From a marine actinobacterium MedAcidi-G3 (GTDB lineage: Bacteria; Actinomycetota; Acidimicrobiia; Acidimicrobiales; Poriferisodalaceae), in assembly GCA_000817105.1 (NCBI GenBank), contig JUEP01000007.1, positions 52,811 through 116,810 of the forward strand: 64,000 nt of DNA, in the 5' to 3' direction. This document shows positions 6,145 to 25,507 of this stretch, one piece after another; position 1 is the stretch's first letter, and each line of letters starts with the position of its first letter. The notes beneath the pieces were generated by a model, which worked only from the letters and a program-made list of their open reading frames with translations, was not told the origin of the DNA and ran no database searches. Made by a program: the position numbers and the translations under genes.

Positions 6145-6675
6145 ATGGTTGAGCAGCAATTCGACTCTTCTGGCGGCCCGTCAGAATCGACTCCTGAAAA
6201 CGTCGAGTTAATTGAACTCGAAGGCGCTATCAACGGAGACGGCGAACCTCCTGCGATTTCAGAGCCGGGCAAGGTCATGCGGATCGGCTCGATGATCAGA
6301 ACGTTGTTAGAAGAAGTTCGTGAAGCCCACCTTGACGAGGCTAGTCGCGATCGGATGAGAGAGATTTATGAACAGTCAGTCGAAGAATTGTCTGAGGCAC
6401 TGGCTCCTGAACTTAGAGACGAGCTAGCACGACTCGCACTACCATTTAGCTCTGACTCGCCATCGGAGGGAGAATTGCGAGTTGCTCAAGCGCAATTAGT
6501 AGGTTGGCTTGAAGGGTTGTTTCACGGGATTCAGGCTGCAGTTGCAGCTCAGCAAATGATGGCGCAACGCCAACTGATGGAAATGCGCCAGGGTGCTCTT
6601 CCACCTGGATTGAGCGCCCCTGAGGGAGCTGAAACCAAGCAGTCCGAAGGTCATCCGGGAGGCGTTTATCTATGA
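6145..6675 (+). CDS. bpa: Bacterial proteasome activator (Bpa/PafE family)
   Basis: KVMRIGSMIRTLLEEVREAHLDEASRDRMREIYEQSVEELSEALAPEL...LVGWLEGLFHGIQAAVAAQQMMAQRQL; C-terminus GGVYL, comparable to GQYL of known Bpa. Confidence 0.9.
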   Translation: MVEQQFDSSGGPSESTPENVELIELEGAINGDGEPPAISEPGKVMRIGSMIRTLLEEVREAHLDEASRDRMREIYEQSVEELSEALAPELRDELARLALPFSSDSPSEGELRVAQAQLVGWLEGLFHGIQAAVAAQQMMAQRQLMEMRQGALPPGLSAPEGAETKQSEGHPGGVYL

Positions 6676-24481: not shown

Positions 24482-25129
24482 CTAGTCCTGGTTGATGATC
24501 TCGCTGATGAAAGAGCTTGCTCGCTCAGTCACTGGTTGTGTTACTCCTAAAAAGAAGTGATCGGCTTGAGCGACCTTTTCTACGGTGGTGGCGACCCAAG
24601 GTTCACAAATTGCGTGAGCGTCAGAAATAGATCGGAACTGATCATTCTCTGGGACCAGGAGAAGAGTGGGTCGCTGATCCTTACCCGCCTTCATTTCCTT
24701 AGGCTCAAGCAACGCCAAAGGTGACGCTATTCCAATCCAGCCGGCAAGATCAGAGTCATCGGCGGAGAGTGAAACATCTGCCCCGAATGAGTATCCAATT
24801 GAGAACACAGGAACGGCATCAGATAGTTGCGAAGCAAAAGCGAAGGCTGCTTGGCTGTCCAATATTTCCAGGCGCCCGTCCCCGTGGCCGCCCTCTGAAT
24901 TTCCGACGCCCCGAAAGTTGTACCTTAAGGTTCCGATTGCATCTAACGGTAATGAATCGAAAAGTGCCTGAACAACGTTATTGTTCATCGCCCCGCCGTA
25001 CAGAGGGTGTGGGTGAGATAGGACTGCGATAGCTCGAATATTGCTACTCAGTCGGTATTCGGCCTCGATAGTTACACCGTCACTAGTTTGGAAATTTGTT
25101 ATTTGAGCCGATCCGGGGTCCGCGTTCAT
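24482..25129 (-). CDS. Alpha/beta hydrolase
   Basis: AVLSHPHPLYGGAMNNNVVQALFDSL, TLRYNFRGVGNSEGGHGDGRLE, FSIGYSFGADVSL; ATG chosen at 25129 to avoid overlap with the divergent gene. Confidence 0.88.
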   Translation of the reverse strand: MNADPGSAQITNFQTSDGVTIEAEYRLSSNIRAIAVLSHPHPLYGGAMNNNVVQALFDSLPLDAIGTLRYNFRGVGNSEGGHGDGRLEILDSQAAFAFASQLSDAVPVFSIGYSFGADVSLSADDSDLAGWIGIASPLALLEPKEMKAGKDQRPTLLLVPENDQFRSISDAHAICEPWVATTVEKVAQADHFFLGVTQPVTERASSFISEIINQD

Positions 25130-25153
25130 GTCTGAAAACGGTACCGTGCCATC

Positions 25154-25507
25154 GTGGCAGAAGAACCAAATGACGTAGCTACAGACCAAAATCAGAAACG
25201 CCCGATCAAAATGCTTCACGATCGGATCCTTGTGAGGATGCCGGATGACGAAGCTGAGCGCCGCAGTAGCGGTGGGATTCTGATTCCGGCTACAGCCCAG
25301 CAACAGAAGCGTTTAGTTTGGGGTGAGGTCGTGGGGGCCGGGCCTAACGTCAGAAGTGCTGAGGAAGGTGACCAGGTTTTGTTTAGCCCCGAGGACCGTT
25401 TTGAAGTAGAAGTTCACGGTGACGATTTTTTGATCCTGCGTGAACGCGACGTTCACGCGATAGCAGCTCCACGGGTCGAACCCGGAAGTACAGGTCTATA
25501 CCTTTAA
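25154..25507 (+). CDS. GroES-like co-chaperonin with C-terminal STGLYL tail
   Basis: GTG start; IKMLHDRILVRMPDDEAERRSSGGILIPATAQQQKRLVWGEVVGAGPNV...EEGDQVLFSPED; ends PGSTGLYL. No groEL adjacent. Confidence 0.88.
   Translation: MAEEPNDVATDQNQKRPIKMLHDRILVRMPDDEAERRSSGGILIPATAQQQKRLVWGEVVGAGPNVRSAEEGDQVLFSPEDRFEVEVHGDDFLILRERDVHAIAAPRVEPGSTGLYL

Follow-up and report, generated by a model that had tools for sequence, protein, structure and literature searches.

In this work we asked why a solitary GroES-like protein from a marine actinobacterium should end in a tail resembling those with which known regulators dock on the 20S proteasome. The protein is encoded at positions 25154-25507 (+) of a 64,000-nucleotide stretch of the MedAcidi-G3 genome (GCA_000817105.1, contig JUEP01000007.1), which we refer to as the window. 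A sequence-only reading of this window had proposed that a GroES-like ring protein with a G-[hydrophobic]-Y-L tail and no neighbouring groEL could cap the 20S proteasome instead of, or in addition to, GroEL. Our results confirm the observation and support the interpretation, although binding to the proteasome and opening of its gate are inferred.

Domain assignment and genomic context

The gene encodes 117 amino acids with a GTG start, and the protein ends PGSTGLYL, with the stop codon at 25505-25507. It starts about 24 bases from a likely divergent ATG start of a hydrolase-like ORF (window 25127-25154), leaving almost no leader; a leaderless GTG start is possible. The protein matches the Pfam family Cpn10 with 64.6 bits against a cut-off of 21.1, and its only other Pfam match, to DUF7861, is below the cut-off of that family. 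It scores below every NCBIfam 'co-chaperone GroES' cut-off (best 48.1 bits against 136), which indicates a paralog and not an orthologous GroES. The best Foldseek hits of its AlphaFold2 monomer model are Cpn10 structures.

The genome (2.1 Mb in 32 contigs, 88.6% complete) has two groEL genes, both on other contigs, one beside the canonical groES (contig C1) and one elsewhere (contig C14). It also has a full proteasome locus, in which mpa lies directly upstream of dop-pup-prcB-prcA-pafA and Mpa/ARC ends TGQYL. The window itself contains the gene for Bpa, the bacterial proteasome activator (6145-6675 (+), PF10759, 204 bits), which ends GVYL. We scanned the whole genome for G-[codon with A/T in the middle]-Y-[L/F]-stop, and only four open reading frames of real length were left: Mpa (GQYL), Bpa (GVYL), the protein studied here (GLYL) and a short-chain dehydrogenase which ends WGDYL (contig C31, 46906-46920). 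In the dehydrogenase the Asp at -3 makes docking unlikely. No PADLOC match was found, and we rejected a reading as a defence system.

Conservation of the C-terminal tail

A search of 396 actinobacterial genomes split cleanly into paralogs (E below 1e-21, 110 genomes) and canonical GroES (E above 1e-12). We extracted one paralog from each of the 110 genomes, and all of them end G[LQ]Y[LI]: 97 GLYL, 12 GQYL and 1 GLYI. The Gly and Tyr of the tail (codons 114-117, 25493-25504 (+)) are invariant, whereas the linker between the last barrel strand and the tail (codons 105-113, 25466-25492 (+)) is among the least conserved parts, with up to 3.4 bits of entropy and 9-14 residues in homologues. Synonymous codons are mixed at the tail: all four Gly codons, five Leu codons at -3, both Tyr codons and all three stop codons occur. 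A chance tail can therefore be rejected. Eighty further loci found by a core-motif scan that does not use the tail, and 20 from one family that we sampled more densely (f54 in our numbering of families), end GLYL or GLYI. The statement in the sequence-only reading that similar STGLYL tails occur on GroES paralogs of other actinobacteria is correct.

GQYL, the exact tail of Mpa and Bpa, occurs in family f31 and separately inside family f5 on a tree built without the tail. On this tree the paralogs form one clade apart from canonical GroES (100/100, with a caution about long branches). Canonical GroES from 21 genomes, including this one, ends at LAI[VI]x or a close variant and has no extension, so the tail is not a general feature of GroES. 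Bpa tails in these genomes are much more variable at -3 (T, P, A, N, S, V, Q; always Y[L/I] at the end) than the published statement that the whole GQYL is highly conserved, and also more variable than the (TG/PG)QYL that the sequence-only reading had given for Mpa/ARC and Bpa.

Two of the records holding the paralog, at 65-71% identity, are titled 'Bifidobacterium breve' MAG. They look like mislabelled Acidimicrobiia genomes, and the contig of one of them has the same length as contig C22 of the sampled genome G339 (same order as the window). Another genome, G366, carries two copies of the tailed paralog (C73:189-509 and C100:2427-2744), both alignments reaching the end of the tail.

Distribution of the paralog and the proteasome

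For the same 396 genomes we used Pfam PF00227 to detect the 20S proteasome. Both the paralog and the 20S are found in 109 genomes, the paralog only in 1, the 20S only in 62 and neither in 224 (Fisher p 3e-51). By family, 32 of 45 20S-bearing families have the paralog and none of the 36 others. In the denser sample of family f54 (90 genomes), all 57 paralogs are in 20S-positive genomes and all 16 20S-negative genomes lack it, and one genus (g258) shows both states. Over the two samples there is 1 apparent exception in 166 paralog-bearing genomes, and the tail is thus not equally conserved in genomes lacking prcAB, because the whole gene is absent there. Genomes within a family are not independent and the samples share ancestry, so the p-values overstate the evidence and should not be read literally. 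Two genomes of family f60 (G121 and G101) have 4 and 3 PF00227 matches, suggesting extra proteasome subunit genes.

More useful are the repeated co-losses, which number at least three families. Seven genomes with Pup ligase but no 20S, in families f33, f48 and f54, all lack the paralog and lack Bpa, while their 20S-bearing relatives mostly have it. The gene hence tracks the 20S and not pupylation. Six of those genomes keep a full-length Mpa, and in 6 of 6 its GQYL tail has gone, which suggests that Mpa continues there in a 20S-independent role. This observation serves as an internal calibration, in that an intact GxYL tail is itself a sign of selection by the 20S.

In the single exception, genome G006, the dop-pup contig carries a transporter where prcBA would be. 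Its Mpa still ends PGQYL, so the simplest reading, although not proven, is that prcBA is missing from the 250-contig assembly rather than from the organism. In the other direction, 62 of 171 20S-bearing genomes in the main sample lack the paralog, including all 19 of family f47, which is probably the Mycobacterium family. In a larger sample of this family 4 of 200 genomes have it (three in genus g89, one in g310), possibly by late transfer or retention. The paralog is therefore an optional part.

The gene is not linked to the proteasome locus, and neither is Bpa. We saw no operon link to proteasome genes, and the commonest real downstream neighbour, in 29 genomes, is a trpE-like gene, mainly a local arrangement of the window's relatives. 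Heat-shock regulation by HrcA/CIRCE together with groESL can be rejected, as canonical groES genes carry the CIRCE operator (0-3 mismatches of 18) and the best sites upstream of paralogs have 6-10 mismatches.

Features of the protein beyond the tail

The equivalent of the mobile, GroEL-binding loop (codons 37-51, 25262-25306 (+), RSSGGILIPATAQQQ) is retained. The motif GG[IL][LVI]IPATA is almost invariant in the 110 homologues, with G41, P45, A46 and T47 invariant and I44 in 109 of 110, and it aligns with the GroEL-binding tripeptide of canonical and E. coli GroES. Residues 37-40 have low pLDDT, as expected for a mobile loop. The roof beta-hairpin of GroES, in contrast, is shortened by about 8-10 residues at codons 64-72 (PNVRSAEEG, 25343-25369 (+)) in every paralog compared with the 21 canonical actinobacterial GroES and E. 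coli GroES. The model has no strand between residues 63 and 73, whereas the canonical model has short strands there at 47-48 and 55-56. T4 gp31 probably differs in this region too, so the shortening does not exclude membership of the Cpn10 family. The SKYGGTE stretch of GroES is lost as well. The C-terminus is predicted to be a disordered extension beyond the last strand (pLDDT below 50 for 114-117) and is not buried, although this rests on a monomer model only.

Discussion

Our results are best explained by a proteasome-dedicated co-chaperonin paralog, and we consider this reading likely. In mycobacteria the GQYL tails of Mpa and Bpa insert between 20S alpha-subunits and are required for gate opening, and the Q is dispensable (PMC12288473, PMC8223512). 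Seven of the twelve Bpa protomers fill all seven alpha pockets (PMC11953334). A GroES ring has seven subunits, so seven tails on linkers of 9-14 residues could meet seven pockets without symmetry mismatch. As the roof hairpin is shortened, the ring probably has a wider axial hole than GroES. The most likely action is a nucleotide-independent cap that opens the 20S gate and admits unfolded or chaperonin-released substrates, in the manner of Bpa or 11S activators. The retained GroEL-binding loop suggests that the ring can also sit on GroEL, so it may switch clients between folding and degradation. In the absence of binding data, ring formation, tail docking, gate opening and GroEL contact are all inferences. 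Docking of the tail on the 20S seems very likely to us, activation is somewhat more likely than inhibition, and GroEL binding is about as likely as not. The conserved loop could also mean that the main partner of the paralog is GroEL.

A stronger form of this hypothesis is that one ring lids GroEL through its mobile loops or caps the 20S through its GxYL tails, one after the other or at once, handing clients that fail to fold to the protease. The near invariance of the loop and the existence of co-chaperonins that sit on a protease (PDB 7ekq) are in favour of such a bridge. The repressors of chaperone genes HrcA and HspR are reported mycobacterial proteasome substrates (PMC8223512), so the two systems are already linked. 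However, loop and tail may lie on the same face of the ring, which would exclude simultaneous binding, there are no GroEL data, and the gene is not in the CIRCE regulon with groESL. We regard a true bridge as possible but tentative. It would amount to a fold-or-degrade switch which the mycobacterial model organisms mostly lack and which was therefore missed.

Another possibility is that the ring docks with its tails but plugs the 20S, or competes with Mpa and Bpa, and so restrains degradation, as plastid Cpn20 represses ClpP. Bpa itself inhibits Mpa-dependent degradation by competition (PMC4254994), and the precedent of the chloroplast complex makes inhibition a serious rival. Nevertheless we find it the less likely alternative, since GQYL-type tails are reported to be required for opening the mycobacterial 20S (PMC12288473) and the roof hairpin is shortened rather than lengthened, which favours an open ring.

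It is improbable that the protein is an ordinary second GroES, retained in the same old lineages as the proteasome, whose tail serves GroEL or another partner. The Cpn10 fold and the GroEL-type loop are kept, many 20S-bearing genomes lack the gene, and the co-occurrence is partly shared ancestry. But this does not fit the co-loss within families f33, f48 and f54 and within genus g258, the identity of the tail with that of Mpa and Bpa with separate L/Q swaps, or the tail-less canonical GroES. Finally, a self-targeting signal that brings the paralog to the 20S for condition-dependent turnover is very unlikely: any GxYL tail on a flexible linker could reach the alpha pocket, but C-terminal HbYX tags do not appear to mark any class of 20S substrate, the ring-forming family suggests multivalent docking, and presence of the whole gene, not just the tail, follows the 20S.

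Only Mpa/ARC, Bpa/PafE and Cpa are discussed as bacterial 20S partners in the reviews we consulted (PMC12288473, PMC8223512), and we found no published role for a GroES-type 20S partner in the open-access literature, subscription papers not being covered. A GroES-fold partner would be a new structural class of proteasome regulator, would match the seven-fold symmetry that the Mpa hexamer and the Bpa dodecamer do not, and would tie folding by GroEL to degradation. One plausible reason why it was missed is that the screen which found Bpa searched M. tuberculosis for HbYX-tailed proteins that co-occur with prcAB (PMC4254994), and the sampled genomes of what is probably its family almost all lack the gene.

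Comparison with known systems

With Bpa/PafE the paralog shares a variable linker followed by a GxYL-type tail, occurrence with prcAB (165 of 166 paralog genomes) and a gene far from the proteasome locus, and like Bpa it would be a small ring-forming 20S partner. Bpa is, however, an unrelated all-helical dodecamer and the paralog is a Cpn10-family beta-barrel, predicted to be seven-fold, which does not match PF10759. Canonical GroES/Cpn10, for example M. tuberculosis Cpn10 (1p3h), has the same barrel fold and GroEL-binding mobile loop. Compared with it, the paralog adds a linker of 10-15 residues plus G[LQ]YL, loses 8-10 residues of the roof hairpin and the SKYGGTE stretch, lacks CIRCE upstream and has no adjacent groEL. 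Mpa/ARC is present in the same genomes and has a GQYL tail that docks in the 20S alpha pockets, but it is an AAA+ hexamer that uses ATP and recognises Pup. The 11S/PA28/PA26 activators have an unrelated helical fold and are eukaryotic. That co-chaperonins can cap a compartment protease is known from chloroplast ClpP capped by Cpn11/20/23 (PDB 7ekq; PMC8889267, PMC12282863), which is the closest solved relative of the profile and also a Foldseek hit. There GroES-family subunits sit on the end of the protease, but the protease is a different one, the co-chaperonins are heteromeric and reported as inhibitory, and there is no GxYL docking in 20S pockets. The resemblance is an analogy in how the two might work.
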